A stretch of 64,000 nt of DNA from Cellulosimicrobium cellulans (lineage in GTDB: Bacteria > Actinomycetota > Actinomycetes > Actinomycetales > Cellulomonadaceae), in the NCBI RefSeq assembly GCF_016907755.1, contig NZ_JAFBCN010000001.1:2666001-2730000 (forward strand), in the 5' to 3' direction. Shown here in pieces: positions 30,792-37,338 of the stretch. Each line of letters begins with the position of its first letter. Positions within the stretch are counted from its first letter, which is position 1. Made by a program: the position numbers and the translations under genes. The notes under the pieces were generated by a model that made no database searches, was not told where the DNA came from, and worked only from the letters and a program-made list of their open reading frames with translations.

Positions 30792-30797
30792 GTGCGG

Positions 30798-32462
30798 GTG
30801 AGGTGGGACGGACAGGCGCTCGGCGCGGACGACGGCGCTCTCCCGGGGCTGGAGCGGGCGGGCCTCGTGCGCAGCGTGCGCACGCCCGAGTTCGCCGGGA
30901 TCACGTTCCACGAGGTGACGGCCAAGAGCGCGCTGTCGAAGGTCCCGGCGATGTCGCGGATGCCGTTCCGCTGGACGGTCAACCCGTACCGCGGCTGCAG
31001 CCACGCCTGCTCCTACTGCCTCGCGCCGTCGACGCCCGTGCTGCTCGCCGACGGCACGCAACGGCCGATCGGCGAGCTGCGCGTCGGCGACGAGATCGTG
31101 GGGACCGCACCGCGCGGCGCCTACCGGCGCTACGTGCGCACGCGCGTGCTCGACCGCTGGACCACCCGCAAGCGCGCGTACCGCGTGACCCTCGCGGACG
31201 GCACGCGCCTCGTCGCGAGCGGTGACCACCGGTTCCTCACCGAACGGGGCTGGCGTCACGTCGTCGGCGGGGCCGGTCGCCGCGCCCACCTGGCGCTGGG
31301 CGACGTCCTCGTCGGTCCGGGGGCGGCCGCGCTCGCGGACGGGCGGGTCGCGCTCGACGGCCGGGACGTCACGGGCGACGAGGCGCTGCGCGTCGACTCG
31401 CTCGAGGCGCTCGACGGGCCGGGGGAGGAGACCGAGCTCGTCGACATCACCACCGGGACGCGGGACTTCGTCGCCTCCGGGGTCGTGAGCCACAACTGCT
31501 TCGCGCGGCCCACCCACCAGTACCTCGACCTCGACGCGGGCGACGACTTCGACCGCGAGGTCGTGGTCAAGGTGAACGTCGACGAGGTGCTGCGCGCCGA
31601 GCTCGCCCGCGCGTCGTGGAGCCGCGAGCCCGTCGCACTCGGCACGAACACGGACCCCTACCAGCGGGCCGAAGGGCGCTACCGCCTCATGCCGGGCATC
31701 ATCGACGCGCTCGCGGGCTCCGGCACACCCCTGTCGGTCCTCACCAAGGGCACGCTCCTGCGCCGCGACCTGCCGCTGCTCGCCGACGCCGCCTCGCGCG
31801 TCGAGGTCGGGGTCGGCGTCTCGCTCGCGCTGCTGGACCCGACTCTCCAGGCGAGCGTCGAACCGGGCACGCCCTCGCCGCGCGCCCGCCTCGACCTGAT
31901 CCGCGCGGTCCGCGAGGCGGGCCTGCCGTGCGGCGTCATGGTCGCGCCCGTGCTGCCGTGGCTCACCGACTCCACGCGCGCGCTGACGGACCTGCTCGAC
32001 GCCGTGCAGGACGCCGGGGCCACGGGGGTCACCGTGCTGCCCCTGCACCTCAAGCCCGGCACGCGCGAGTGGTACCTGGGCTGGCTCGCGCGCGAGCACC
32101 CCCAGCTCGTCCCCGGGTACGAGCGCGTCTACGCGCGCGGCGCGTACGCCTCGAAGGCGTACCGCTCGTGGCTGTGGGACCGTGTGCGCCCGATGCTCGA
32201 GGCACGCGGCTTCGCGGTGTCCGGCCATCGCGGTCCCGCCGGCGTCGAGGGGCGGTACCGCCGGGGCGAGCTCGGCGGCCTCGGCTCCGGGCCGCTGGAC
32301 CCCGGCCCACCCCTCGACGGTGCGTACCCCGCCGGGAGCATGGCGCGCGGCGCCCGGGACGCAGAGACGCATCGAGGCCACGACGGGGCGCTCGCGGGCA
32401 TGCCGGTCGACGGGGGTGGGCTCGACGTCGTCGGCGGGGGAGTCGAGCAGGTCCTGTTCTGA
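30798..32462 (+). CDS. Rv2578c-family radical SAM protein, intein-containing
   Basis: Precursor of 554 aa; spliced protein about 394 aa. The radical SAM cluster motif CxxxCxxC is formed only after splicing: C67 and C71 lie in the N-extein (RGCSHACSY) and the third Cys is the first residue of the C-extein (CFARPTHQYLDLD). The rest follows the SplB-like radical SAM fold ('PVALGTNTDPYQRAEGRYRL', 'LTKGTLLRRDLPLL', 'VTVLPLHLKPGTREWYLGWL'). Related proteins are linked to DNA photolesion repair by fold, but the reaction of this family is not established. GTG at 30798 (MRWDGQ) is preferred over GTG 30792 given the promoter. LexA control suggests a DNA-damage role. Confidence 0.92.
   Translation: MRWDGQALGADDGALPGLERAGLVRSVRTPEFAGITFHEVTAKSALSKVPAMSRMPFRWTVNPYRGCSHACSYCLAPSTPVLLADGTQRPIGELRVGDEIVGTAPRGAYRRYVRTRVLDRWTTRKRAYRVTLADGTRLVASGDHRFLTERGWRHVVGGAGRRAHLALGDVLVGPGAAALADGRVALDGRDVTGDEALRVDSLEALDGPGEETELVDITTGTRDFVASGVVSHNCFARPTHQYLDLDAGDDFDREVVVKVNVDEVLRAELARASWSREPVALGTNTDPYQRAEGRYRLMPGIIDALAGSGTPLSVLTKGTLLRRDLPLLADAASRVEVGVGVSLALLDPTLQASVEPGTPSPRARLDLIRAVREAGLPCGVMVAPVLPWLTDSTRALTDLLDAVQDAGATGVTVLPLHLKPGTREWYLGWLAREHPQLVPGYERVYARGAYASKAYRSWLWDRVRPMLEARGFAVSGHRGPAGVEGRYRRGELGGLGSGPLDPGPPLDGAYPAGSMARGARDAETHRGHDGALAGMPVDGGGLDVVGGGVEQVLF
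31017..31496 (+). other. mini-intein (160 aa) inside the radical SAM gene
   Basis: Residues 74-233 of the precursor. Block A begins 'CLAPSTPVLLADGTQRPIGE' with Cys1; block B has 'LVASGDHRFLTERGW'; block F is near 'ELVDITTGTRDFVASG'; block G is 'VVSHN' with the penultimate His and terminal Asn, followed by Cys +1. All splicing residues are present, so it should be active. No LAGLIDADG endonuclease domain fits in 160 residues, so it cannot home by itself. The insertion point is immediately before the third iron-sulfur cluster Cys. Confidence 0.93.
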
Positions 32463-32838: not shown

Positions 32839-33306
32839 TCAGCCCTCCGCGAGTCGAGCGGGGAAGCCGCCGGTCGCGACCGGGCCCCAGCGCGTGATCG
32901 TCAGGCGCACGAGCGACTTGCCCTGCGCGACCATCGCCGCGCGGTACTCGTCCCAGTCCGGGTGCTCGCCGCTGATGGAGCGGTAGTACTCGACGAGCGG
33001 CTCGACGGACTCCGGAAGGTCGATCACCTCGGCGTCGCCGTCGACCTGGACCCACGGGTCGGAGAAGCGCTCGCCCAGCGACAGCAGCGACGCGCGCGGG
33101 TCGCGGCGCGCGTTGACCGACTTCGCGCGCTCCGGGTACGTCGACACGACGACCCGGCCCGCGTCGTCCACCCCGTACGTCACCGGGCTGAGCTGCGGCC
33201 GCCCGTCGGCGCGCGTCGTGACGAGGACGCCGTCGTGCCGGGACCGCAGGAACTCCTCGAGCTCCTGGCGCTCGACCCTGCGGTTGGTGGCGATGGTGCG
33301 GGCCAC
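32839..33306 (-). CDS. PPOX-class F420/FMN-dependent oxidoreductase
   Basis: 155-aa split-barrel flavin-binding protein. 'HDGVLVTTRADGRPQLSPVTYG' and 'VVVSTYPERAKSVNARRDPRASL' are typical of the actinobacterial PPOX-class, F420-dependent Rv1155-like group. It probably reduces a small organic substrate using F420H2 or FMN; the substrate is unknown. GTG at 33306 has AGGAGG 7 bases upstream. A hairpin-forming palindrome lies in its leader. Confidence 0.82.
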   Translation of the reverse strand: MARTIATNRRVERQELEEFLRSRHDGVLVTTRADGRPQLSPVTYGVDDAGRVVVSTYPERAKSVNARRDPRASLLSLGERFSDPWVQVDGDAEVIDLPESVEPLVEYYRSISGEHPDWDEYRAAMVAQGKSLVRLTITRWGPVATGGFPARLAEG

Positions 33307-33391: not shown

Positions 33392-35323
33392 TCAGGGCGC
33401 GGCCTCGAACGCCCTGCCGACCGGGGTCGCGACACCGCCCGGACCGTAGAGCCCCGAGCGCAGCGGACCGTCCTCGGCAGGCAGCCCGAACCACGCGTAG
33501 CGGTGGACGTAGTCGAGTCCGGCGAGCATCCGTGTCGCCTGGGCGAGGAACGCCGCCTGCTCGTCCTCGCTCGCGTGCCGCACGCCCTGGGAGAAGTCGA
33601 TGAGCGCCACCTCGGTGAGCCAGATCGGCTTGCCGTACCGCGCGTGGACCGCCTCGAGGTACCGCCGGAGCTGGTCGGTCGCCCGCGTGGCGTCGAAGTC
33701 CCCGCCGTACCAGTGCAGCGTCACGAAGTCGACGCGGTACCCGCGCTCGTCGGCGCCGCGCAGGAAGCGATCGAGCCACCCGTCGGGCGCGTCGCCTCCC
33801 CACGCGACCGCGGGGCTGCCGAGCACCTGACCCGTGGCCTCGAGGCGCGGCCACAGCGCGAGCGCCTCCTCGACGCTCATCTCGGCCTGTCCGGCGAGGT
33901 CCGGTTCGTTGAACCCGAGCAGGTAGCGTCCCTGGCTCGCGGCGCGCGCGAGGTTCTCGTCCGTCACGTGGTCGCGGCCCCAGATCATCGGGACGAACTC
34001 CACCCCCGACGCCGCTCCCGGCCCGGGGTCGGTGCCCCAGGTGTAGTACCAGGCGGCCCCCGAGGCGGTCAGCGCCGTGGCGGCGTCGTCGAACGCCCAC
34101 ACGGCCGCACCCTTCTTGCCCGACGGCGGTGCGGCCGGACCGGGGTCCGCCGCGGCGCCCGGGGCCTCACCCGGGGCCGACGACGGCGCCTCGGGCGAGG
34201 CGGGTGCCGGCTCGACGGTCGGAGGATCGACCGGGGTCACGGCGGGCTCCGGAGACGGGTCGGGCGCTGCCTCGCGCGGCGGCGTCGTGGTCACCGTGAC
34301 CGCCGTCGGGACCGGCGCCGCGACCGTCGGCGCGGGACCGCCCCCGAGGGCGAGCGCCGCGACGACCCCGACAGCCGCCGCAGCGGCGCCCGTGACGAGC
34401 GCGGTCCGCAGGGGCGAGCGCACCCAGGAGAGCAGACCGGTCCGGGTCTGCGGGTGCGTGACGGGGAGCACCTCGGTGGCCGAGCCTCCCGCGAGCCCCT
34501 CGATCGTCGGTGCACCCGCGAGCCCCTCGGCGGCGAGGCGGGAGGCCGCGCCCGCGAGGGCCGCCGGCGGCACGAGGAGCGGGAGACCGGCGAGCAGCCG
34601 CTCGGGCGACCGCGCCTCGAGGCCGCCGCAGCGCGGGCAGTCCAGCACGTGCCGCGCCATCCGCTTGCGCCACAGCGGGCTCGGGAGCCCGTCCCAGCGC
34701 CGCGCGACGTCCGTGAGCCCCGCGCACGGCGGGGTGCGGTCGAGCGCCACGACGATCGCGCGCCCCGTCGCGAGACGCTCACGCATCCGCTGGACGCGCA
34801 CCGCAGCGTGCCGGCGCTCGACGCCGAGGGACTCGGCGAGCTCGGCCCGCGTCAGCTCGCCGGTCGACTCGAGCCACCACAGCGCGAGCACGTCCCGGTC
34901 GCGCGGGTCCAGCCACCGCGTCGCCCGGGCGAGGACCCGTCGCTCCCCGGCGAGGAACAGCCGGTCGATCGTCGTCGCCACGAAGTCCGCCGCCGGGTCC
35001 GCCGCGAGCTCCACCGCCGACAGGTCCGCATGGCGCTCGCGGTCGACCCGACGCCGACGCATCCAGTCCCGCACCTGTCGCACCGTGATCGCGAGCAGCC
35101 ACGAGCGGAACGACTGCGGGCGCTCGAGGGAGCCGAGCCCGCGCACCACGCGCAGGACCGACTCCTGGACCACGTCGTCGGTGTCCGGGTGCCCGTCGAG
35201 AGCGCGCCCGACGACGTTGTAGACCAGCGGCAGCGACTGCGCGACGAGGCGGTCGAGCGCCTCCGGGTCGCCGGAGCGCGCGGCGAGGACCACATCGACG
35301 GGCACTTCCTGGGTCGGTCGCAT
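33392..35323 (-). CDS. ECF sigma factor fused to anti-sigma-like segment, membrane helix and GH128-like glycoside hydrolase
   Basis: 643-aa multidomain protein. Residues about 25-95 are sigma region 2 ('DDVVQESVLRVVRGL', 'SFRSWLLAITVRQVRDWMRR'); about 120-185 are sigma region 4 ('LDPRDRDVLALWWLE', 'LAESLGVERRHAAVRVQRMR'). A segment with H225-x3-C229-x2-C232 matches the zinc anti-sigma motif. One transmembrane helix is at about 303-328, then a Pro/Ala/Glu linker (330-403), and an Asl1/GH128-like hydrolase domain (404-643) with candidate catalytic Glu473 in 'GFNEPDLAG' and Glu571 in 'IWLTEVALIDFS'. The topology puts the sigma domain inside and the hydrolase outside. ATG 35323 has AAGGAG upstream. 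Likely a one-protein sensor of beta-glucan; this role is inferred. Confidence 0.88.
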   Translation of the reverse strand: MRPTQEVPVDVVLAARSGDPEALDRLVAQSLPLVYNVVGRALDGHPDTDDVVQESVLRVVRGLGSLERPQSFRSWLLAITVRQVRDWMRRRRVDRERHADLSAVELAADPAADFVATTIDRLFLAGERRVLARATRWLDPRDRDVLALWWLESTGELTRAELAESLGVERRHAAVRVQRMRERLATGRAIVVALDRTPPCAGLTDVARRWDGLPSPLWRKRMARHVLDCPRCGGLEARSPERLLAGLPLLVPPAALAGAASRLAAEGLAGAPTIEGLAGGSATEVLPVTHPQTRTGLLSWVRSPLRTALVTGAAAAAVGVVAALALGGGPAPTVAAPVPTAVTVTTTPPREAAPDPSPEPAVTPVDPPTVEPAPASPEAPSSAPGEAPGAAADPGPAAPPSGKKGAAVWAFDDAATALTASGAAWYYTWGTDPGPGAASGVEFVPMIWGRDHVTDENLARAASQGRYLLGFNEPDLAGQAEMSVEEALALWPRLEATGQVLGSPAVAWGGDAPDGWLDRFLRGADERGYRVDFVTLHWYGGDFDATRATDQLRRYLEAVHARYGKPIWLTEVALIDFSQGVRHASEDEQAAFLAQATRMLAGLDYVHRYAWFGLPAEDGPLRSGLYGPGGVATPVGRAFEAAP

Positions 35324-35368: not shown

Positions 35369-35469
35369 GGCCGCAGCGGACGGACCCTCCCGCAGCAGGA
35401 GACGCGCGGGCACGGCGGCGACAACACTATTCGGCGCACGGCCCGGCAGACGGCCCGCACATGGCCCAC

Positions 35470-35535: not shown

Positions 35536-37338
35536 GTGCTGCGCACCCGAACGGCCGGCTCACTGCGGGCCGAGCACACCGGTCAGACCGTCACCCTCAC
35601 GGGTTGGGTCGACCGTCGGCGCGATCACGGCGGCGTCGCCTTCATCGACCTGCGCGACGCCTCCGGCATCGCCCAGGTCGTCATCCGCGACGAGGCCGTC
35701 GCGCACCCGCTGCGCAACGAGTTCGTCCTCCAGGTCACCGGCGAGGTCTCGCGCCGCCCCGACGGGAACGAGAACGCGGCCCTGCCCACCGGCGAGATCG
35801 AGGTCGTCGCGAGCGACGTCGTCGTGCTCAACACGTCCGAGGCGTTGCCGTTCCAGGTCTCCACGGCGCTCGCGGACACCGAGACGATCGGCGAGGAGGC
35901 GCGCCTCAAGCACCGCTACCTCGACCTGCGCCGCCCCGCTCCCGCGCACGCGCTGCGCCTGCGCGCCAAGGTCAACCAGGCGGCGCGCCGCGTGCTCGAC
36001 GCGGAGGAGTTCGTCGAGATCGAGACGCCGACCCTCACGCGCTCGACGCCCGAGGGCGCGCGCGACTTCCTCGTGCCGGCGCGCCTCGCGCCCGGGTCCT
36101 GGTACGCGCTGCCGCAGTCCCCGCAGCTCTTCAAGCAGCTCCTCATGGTCGCCGGCATGGAGCGCTACTACCAGATCGCGCGCTGCTACCGCGACGAGGA
36201 CTTCCGCGCCGACCGCCAGCCCGAGTTCACGCAGCTCGACGTCGAGATGAGCTTCGTCGAGCAGGACGACGTCATCGCCCTCGCGGAGAAGATCCTCGTC
36301 GCGCTGTGGGAGCTGATCGGCTACACGATCCCGACGCCGATCCCGCGCATGACGTTCCACGACGCCATGCGCCTGTACGGGTCGGACAAGCCCGACCTGC
36401 GCTTCGGCAACCCGCTCGTCGAGCTCACGGACTACTTCAAGGACACGCCGTTCCGCGTGTTCCAGGCCGAGTACGTCGGCGCCGTCGTCATGGCCGGCGG
36501 GGCGTCGCAGCCGCGCCGCCAGTTCGACGCGTGGCAGGAGTGGGCCAAGCAGCGCGGCGCCCGCGGGCTCGCCTACGTGACCTTCCAGGAGGACGGGACG
36601 CTCGCCGGCCCGGTCGCCAAGAACCTGTCCGACGCCGAGCGCGAGGGCCTGCGCGACGCGACCGGCGCGCAGCCGGGCGACGCCGTGTTCTTCGCCGCGG
36701 GCAAGACGTCGGAGTCGCGCGCGCTGCTCGGCGCCGCGCGCCAGGAGATCGCCAAGCGCACCGGCCAGATCGACGAGGACGCCTGGGCGTTCGTCTGGGT
36801 CGTGGACGCGCCGCTGTTCAAGCCGACCGGGGATGCCGCCGACGAGGGTGACGTAGCCCTGGGGCACTCGGCCTGGACCGCCGTGCACCACGCGTTCACG
36901 TCGCCCACGCCGGACTGGGTCGACACGTTCGAGCAGGACCCGGGCGAGGCGCTCGCCTACGCGTACGACATCGTCTGCAACGGCAACGAGATCGGCGGCG
37001 GCTCGATCCGTATCCACCGCCGCGACGTGCAGGAGCGGGTGTTCGAGGTCATGGGCATCGGGCCCGAGGAGGCGCAGGAGAAGTTCGGCTTCCTCCTCGA
37101 CGCCTTCAAGTTCGGCGCGCCCCCGCACGGTGGGATCGCGTTCGGCTGGGACCGCATCGTCGCGCTGCTGACGAAGTCGGACTCGATCCGCGACGTCATC
37201 GCGTTCCCGAAGTCGGGCGGCGGGTTCGACCCGCTGACGCAGGCCCCCGCTCCGATCACGCCCGAGCAGCGCAAGGAGGCGGGTGTCGACGCGAAGCCCG
37301 CAGCGCCGAAGGACGAGTCGGGCGGCGGCGAGGCGTAG
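35536..37338 (+). CDS. aspS: aspartyl-tRNA synthetase
   Basis: Class IIb synthetase, 600 aa, bacterial type: N-terminal OB anticodon-binding domain ('[20 protein letters not shown]'), catalytic core with motif 2 '[18 protein letters not shown]', the bacterial GAD insertion (about 290-420), and motif 3 '[14 protein letters not shown]'. GTG start at 35536 with GGAAGGAACC upstream. Many actinobacteria use this enzyme in non-discriminating form, making Asp-tRNA-Asn for amidation; the sequence alone does not settle that here. Confidence 0.96.

Follow-up and report, generated by a model that had tools for sequence, protein, structure and literature searches.

A predicted one-piece polysaccharide sensor joining an ECF sigma factor to a GH128 domain in Cellulosimicrobium cellulans, and its modular relatives

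In Cellulosimicrobium cellulans, an ECF sigma factor, a zinc anti-sigma-like segment, a membrane helix, a linker and a GH128 domain are encoded in a single chain. By analogy with known systems, this protein is probably a one-piece polysaccharide sensor of the ECF52/ECF53 kind, which would be activated by proteolysis and control matching depolymerase genes. Relatives of its chassis, all actinomycetes, carry different outer domains, and in many cases the outer domain seems to fit the polysaccharide enzymes that the protein would switch on. To the broader reading, a modular class with swapped glycan-facing domains, a shared promoter and an outer domain that predicts the regulon, in which the present protein, with an entire glucanase as its outer domain and its own gene as the main target, would be the most extreme form, a self-amplifying sensor-enzyme on its substrate, we give an even chance. 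The architecture is already catalogued (ECF52/ECF53), and the pairing of outer domain and enzyme is the part worth testing.

The gene lies in a stretch of 64,000 nucleotides (the window; positions 2666001-2730000 of the 4.79 Mb genome), where an RBS-like AAGGAG precedes it at 35338-35333. Its parts and immediate surroundings are as follows.

33392..35323, minus strand: whole gene, 643 amino acids, single open frame
34769..35263, minus strand: ECF sigma factor domain, residues 21-185, with region 2 at residues 26-92 (TIGR02937, PF04542)
34628..34726, minus strand: zinc anti-sigma-like segment, residues 200-232, with ligands C200, H225, C229 and C232
34346..34408, minus strand: predicted single membrane helix, about residues 306-326 (hydropathy)
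34124..34336, minus strand: Pro/Ala/Thr/Glu linker, residues 330-400 (composition; AF2 pLDDT)
33401..34120, minus strand: GH128 subgroup-I beta-1,3-glucanase-like domain, residues 402-641 (similarity to AmGH128_I)
33905..33907, minus strand: predicted catalytic glutamate E473, aligned with E102 of AmGH128_I
33611..33613, minus strand: predicted catalytic glutamate E571, aligned with E199 of AmGH128_I
35398..35425, minus strand: promoter-like motif GTTGTC-N17-TCTCC between this gene and the divergent aspS; it begins 102 bases ahead of the ATG
35536..37338, plus strand: divergent neighbour aspS, aspartyl-tRNA-synthetase-like (PF00152, 5.1e-115; GAD domain)
32839..33306, minus strand: downstream neighbour, pyridoxamine-phosphate-oxidase-like (PF01243, 6.9e-18)

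A sequence-only reading had proposed this succession of parts in one chain, and domain hits, zinc ligands, hydropathy and a GH128 match bear it out. The sigma domain comprises the regions 2 and 4 seen in that reading, and these only, and matches the ECF model TIGR02937 well above the cut-off (1.6e-20; 73.4 bits against 42.9) as well as PF04542 (7.2e-12); region 4 taken alone matches weakly. In the AF2 model the pLDDT of this block is mostly around 90, with lower values at residues 91-125 or so. The predicted membrane helix coincides with a hydropathy peak (2.26, at residue 308); a peak of at least 1.6 lies C-terminal to the zinc segment in 77 of 79 aligned members, in some of them nearer the N-terminus, around residue 250. 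The proposed Pro/Ala/Glu linker is evident in the composition of residues 330-400 and in an AF2 pLDDT below 50 over residues 267-398. Beyond it, the outer domain matches AmGH128_I, a subgroup-I endo-beta-1,3-glucanase of Amycolatopsis mediterranei, at 58% identity and 1.1 Å; the family fold and sequence and the pair of glutamates both place it in GH128 subgroup I. E473 and E571, the two catalytic glutamates postulated earlier, are invariant in all 14 GH128-type members, and we regard the domain as beta-1,3-glucanase-like with predicted catalysis. The solved chain of AmGH128_I (263 residues) contains no sigma factor. Because the closest structural match has this specificity, beta-1,3-glucan is favoured over a wall polymer in general within the earlier target of 'beta-glucan or wall polymer'. 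From the order of the parts, the sigma part would be cytoplasmic and the GH128 part extracellular.

The hallmark of zinc anti-sigma (ZAS) domains is H-x3-C-x2-C plus an upstream ligand. The window protein has both: the H225-x3-C229-x2-C232 noted in the sequence-only reading and, as a further ligand, C200, all four residues being invariant in the 79-member alignment. Resemblance to known anti-sigma models is weak: zf-HC2 matches 12 of 43 members (E up to 10, best 0.0009) and does not match the window's own zinc segment. Against the PDB, the top match of the segment is an anti-sigma factor (E 0.27), followed by an unrelated terpene synthase (0.28). We infer that the segment binds zinc and inhibits the fused sigma domain.

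Proteins of this kind have stood in catalogues for years. The accessible parts of two reviews (PMC10766802, PMC8999054) describe ECF52 and ECF53 as having zinc-finger and transmembrane extensions, some with predicted glycosyl hydrolase or carbohydrate-binding domains, in keeping with the remark in the sequence-only reading that ECF classifications include membrane-bound groups with carbohydrate-related domains. Like these, as far as the reviews describe them, the window protein combines an ECF sigma factor, a zinc-finger-like segment, a membrane helix, a Pro-rich extension and a carbohydrate-related outer domain in a single chain, and the order in ECF52 (zinc finger, membrane region, Pro-rich extension, carbohydrate module) is the same. 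The ECF52 protein SCO4117, of which a truncated form was studied and offers a precedent in the available text (PMC5826349), differs in bearing a smart00776 carbohydrate module where the window protein has GH128. The ECF52 zinc finger, pfam13490, has no match in the window protein, and no ECF52-type module is among the 13 Pfam families listed for the 79 members, a scan that does not extend to smart00776 itself. The window protein likely belongs to ECF53, its domain order agreeing with the reviews' descriptions. The earlier impression of a little-characterised system is shared by a 2024 review, which in the part available places experimental validation of glycosidase- and CBM-bearing ECFs in the future (PMC10766802); in the open-licence literature, as far as accessible, we found no experimental paper on a glycosidase-bearing ECF fusion and, for the same architecture, the SCO4117 study alone. 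The accessible review text likewise contains no report of a shared motif or an enzyme pairing, which the primary catalogues (Huang 2015, Pinto 2019, Casas-Pastor 2021) may already note.

In function, the RsgI proteins of C. thermocellum come closest; in the text available, their outer domains include CBM3, PA14, GH10 and CBM42, and they are autoregulated (PMC4711584), with proteolytic steps by RseP and ClpXP (PMC12203970). As in the window protein, outer CBM or GH domains are there tied through a membrane segment to sigma control. The GH10 domain of RsgI6 shares 57% identity with Xyn10D, a xylanase of its regulon, and has very low activity (PMC4711584, as far as accessible), whereas the window GH128 retains both catalytic glutamates; hydrolysis may therefore belong to the signal or to the output. 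SigI/RsgI consists of two proteins with a sigma factor of the SigI type, in contrast to the ECF sigma factor and anti-sigma-like segment joined in the window protein. To our knowledge, the anti-sigma part of RsgI is not a zinc domain. Membership of SigI/RsgI is excluded by the ECF sigma factor in the same chain, although it may function in an RsgI-like way. IutY (ECF243), which mediates iron-siderophore signalling in Pseudomonas and is activated by regulated proteolysis (PMC8999054), also unites sigma factor and membrane anti-sigma in one chain; the available passage mentions no glycan domain for it, unlike the GH128 of the window protein. For ECF48, ECF52 and ECF53, the same review, in its accessible part, reports proposals of activation by proteolysis (PMC8999054).

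Using the sigma and zinc part as the query against one genome per species, we found 89 relatives and kept 80; 79 proteins, including the window's and that of a further Cellulosimicrobium genome (G012), were aligned. Pfam identified sigma region 2 in all 79, AbfB in 30, PF11790 in 14, beta-helix in 13 and CAP in 9, and BLAST grouping of the outer parts gave AbfB 30, GH128 14, beta-helix 14, an unnamed domain 10, CAP 9 and two singles. On a quick tree of the chassis the five outer-domain labels take six changes where four is the minimum possible. A single clade of AbfB carriers is rejected (p-AU 0.000265), and therefore outer domains have been exchanged, at least for AbfB; a single clade of GH128 carriers is not rejected (p-AU 0.149). 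Two Actinoplanes species each carry both beta-helix and AbfB sigma factors. The unnamed domain (L020, L021, L026, L030, L031, L032, L040, L043, L049 and L068) is beta-rich in a low-confidence model and went unmatched in single Pfam scans of three members; it is possibly an undescribed glycan-binding domain.

Upstream of these sigma genes lies a shared sequence. Alignment of three Cellulosimicrobium upstream regions, together with a dyad count over 81 upstream regions, yielded GTTRTC-N17-TCTC, and the window copy recurs in C. terreum and C. arenosum. Counted in the same regions that had yielded it, many of them from close kin, the strict form GTTRTC-N15-19-TCTC stands in forward orientation at 14/15 GH128, 3/9 CAP, 3/10 unnamed-domain, 0/29 AbfB, 0/14 beta-helix and 1/4 ungrouped loci, against a mean of 0.07 and a maximum of 1/81 in shuffles. 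A relaxed form, GTTR-N18-20-TCTMC, sought on either strand from 250 bases before to 30 within the sigma gene, is present at 50 of the 81 loci (shuffles: mean 0.62, largest 2), namely 15/15 GH128, 7/9 CAP, 6/10 unnamed-domain, 11/29 AbfB, 9/14 beta-helix and 2/4 ungrouped; it is forward in all 15 GH128-type genes, the window's included, and every copy counted in the AbfB and beta-helix groups is oriented to the divergent neighbour, away from the sigma gene. We take GTTR-N18-20-TCTMC as a putative promoter used by these sigma factors.

Within the genus, strong matches are confined to four of 17 genomes (the window's, C. terreum, C. arenosum and G012), and seven show no match at all. The C. terreum orthologue is full length at 68%. 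That of C. arenosum (L012/L017) is in two pieces: an in-frame TGA follows the zinc segment, and the reading frame shifts ahead of the GH128 part. It represents a pseudogene, a split gene or an assembly error. In G012 the relative (44%, open frame of 531 aa) bears AbfB (E 1.1e-30) and not GH128. The broken copy and the patchy distribution would suit a chance or decaying fusion without regulated function, an account we consider highly improbable: the survey of relatives proposed earlier found the full-length GH128-type architecture conserved in 12 members that belong to other families, with 47-53% identity, and the relaxed motif stands before every GH128-type gene. Another ECF sigma factor in Cellulosimicrobium (L014, 1501-3803) has zf-HC2 (8.5e-9) and DUF11 within a 1,825-residue open frame, and a further search match (L015) resembles it.

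We then compared the outer domains with the adjoining genes. By Pfam on scanned neighbours, beta-helix types stand beside a ricin-lectin pectinesterase and a pectate lyase, AbfB types beside GH43-like proteins with AbfB, GH43, GH62, GH10 and GH97, CAP types beside CAP proteins, unnamed-domain types beside an alginate-lyase-family protein plus AbfB, and two Streptacidiphilus GH128 types beside thaumatin-family proteins; two genes beside Lentzea GH128 types do not encode carbohydrate enzymes, one product being lipoyl-ligase-like and the other without a match. The catalytic parts were searched by tblastn against 81 flanks (E below 1e-6, sigma gene masked). Pectinesterase and pectate lyase flank 11 of 14 beta-helix loci and none of the other 67, and GH43, GH62 or GH10 occurs at 17 of 29 AbfB loci, at none in the other four groups and at one ungrouped locus (L024), whose chassis falls within the AbfB clade; the queries came from these same loci, and it is the absence elsewhere that is informative. 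GH97 was found at three AbfB loci, CAP at 6/9 CAP and 2/4 ungrouped loci, alginate lyase at 5/10 unnamed-domain loci and 1/29 AbfB loci, and thaumatin at 2/15 GH128 loci. Among the families searched, a neighbour with a possible glucan function is present at just two of the 15 GH128-type loci, and at the window there is none.

The motif also precedes many of these enzymes. In the 1 kb ahead of the enzyme domain, counted on the coding strand and with at most 0.08 expected in each case, it was found before pectinesterase (9/11), GH43a (GH43-AbfB; 8/9), thaumatin (2/2), alginate lyase (5/5 in the unnamed-domain group and 1/1 in the AbfB group), CAP (3/6 in the CAP group, 2/2 ungrouped) and GH97 (1/3). 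Before pectate lyase it occurs in 2/11, which are the two loci with the lyase as the nearer gene. The remaining neighbours in the AbfB group lack it (GH43b 0/5, GH62 0/5, GH10 0/4, GH43c 0/4; in total 0/18), and at L024 it precedes GH43c (1/1) and not GH43a (0/1).

This spectrum of neighbours bears on a second account, in which the protein would be a developmental or wall regulator like SCO4117, its outer domain reading the organism's own or a neighbour's wall and its regulon serving morphogenesis and not foraging. SCO4117 controls secondary metabolism and differentiation, according to the part of the study available (PMC5826349), and CAP-type neighbours, like a possibly wall-anchored neighbour in Streptacidiphilus carbonis described below, are not obvious foraging genes. 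The pectinesterase, pectate lyase, GH43, GH62, GH10 and alginate-lyase-family neighbours point instead to plant or algal polysaccharides. We know of no actinobacterial wall polymer that is a beta-1,3-glucan, and we consider this account improbable.

Genome-wide, the strict motif in a 30-base form has 15 sites in six GH128-type genomes, against one for the reversed control. By sequence, six are the sigma-gene sites. Each of the four Lentzea genomes searched contributes one site shortly before a DUF1996 gene; all four products are confirmed by Pfam and show, by eye, a hydrophobic N-terminal segment. Because the Lentzea species are closely related, these sites count as a single independent event or a few of them. 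A proteomics paper, in its accessible part, suggests a possible link between DUF1996 and polysaccharide degradation (PMC7679414). One site, in S. carbonis, precedes a gene (L141, 562-1437, minus strand) whose product is 43% identical to the unnamed outer domain over 136 residues and has a weak LPXTG-type wall-anchor match just below the cut-off; it adjoins another ECF gene of this chassis, its start 57% identical to the window's. The last four sites lie in or across coding-like frames.

In the window genome, three strict hits were found (that of the gene itself and two inside coding frames), and two for the reversed control. Of the 17 genus genomes, 8 encode DUF1996: all four with the chassis gene and four of the 13 others; the window genome's own protein (L159, G000:C1:1383203-1383844) carries an F5/8 type C domain. 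Neither near this DUF1996 gene nor near two GH16 genes did the stretches examined contain a match approaching the scores of true sites. PF11790 was found in this genome in the present gene alone, and the five neighbouring frames scanned, which also include DUF1330-like, MMPL and radical-SAM proteins, contain no carbohydrate enzyme. As the sole surviving site is the one before the window gene, autoregulation is the one supported target in this organism; other targets may use motif variants inseparable from background. The radical-SAM gene (30792-32462, plus strand) has, directly after a C-x3-C-x2-C stretch, an intein-like insert (residues 92-235; Intein_splicing 5e-4, below the cut-off), an arrangement repeated in C. 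arenosum (L017:7314-9131).

A target list limited to the gene itself would also suit a protein that is a membrane-tethered glucanase first, with a sigma part that regulates its synthesis in response to a non-glucan cue such as envelope stress or the state of the zinc segment. Its invariant catalytic pair is unlike a worn-out binding shell, and a Cys/His segment could conceivably respond to metal or redox cues. We hold this unlikely, given that AbfB and CAP types share this chassis and have matching secreted proteins as neighbours, consistent with a sensing role of the outer domain. AbfB we take to be a binding domain, and AbfB and CAP outer domains are presumably not evident catalysts.

Under the preferred reading of a one-piece polysaccharide sensor, the cytoplasmic sigma domain would be kept inactive at the membrane by the fused zinc anti-sigma-like segment, and the GH128 domain, outside on its long linker, would meet beta-1,3-glucan, for example from yeast or fungal walls. 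Binding or cutting of the glucan would bring about proteolysis at or in the Ala-rich membrane helix, the zinc segment would be cleared, and the freed sigma factor with RNA polymerase would transcribe from GTTR-N18-20-TCTMC promoters. The steps from glucan contact through helix cleavage and loss of the zinc segment to free sigma are modelled on the analogous routes for IutY, ECF48/52/53, SCO4117 and RsgI. In the window organism, activation would raise the amount of the cell's own sensor and glucanase; in relatives, sensors with different outer domains on this chassis would drive the adjoining secreted enzyme. Taken as a whole, the interpretation in the sequence-only reading is partly supported.

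For dozens of actinomycete ECF fusions, the motif and the pairing of outer domain and enzyme allow the signal and the target to be predicted concretely. If the pairing is true, glycan specificity would be readable from the outer domain of the sigma factor, or the other way round, and a chassis with exchangeable outer domains would point to a simple switch that responds to glycans.
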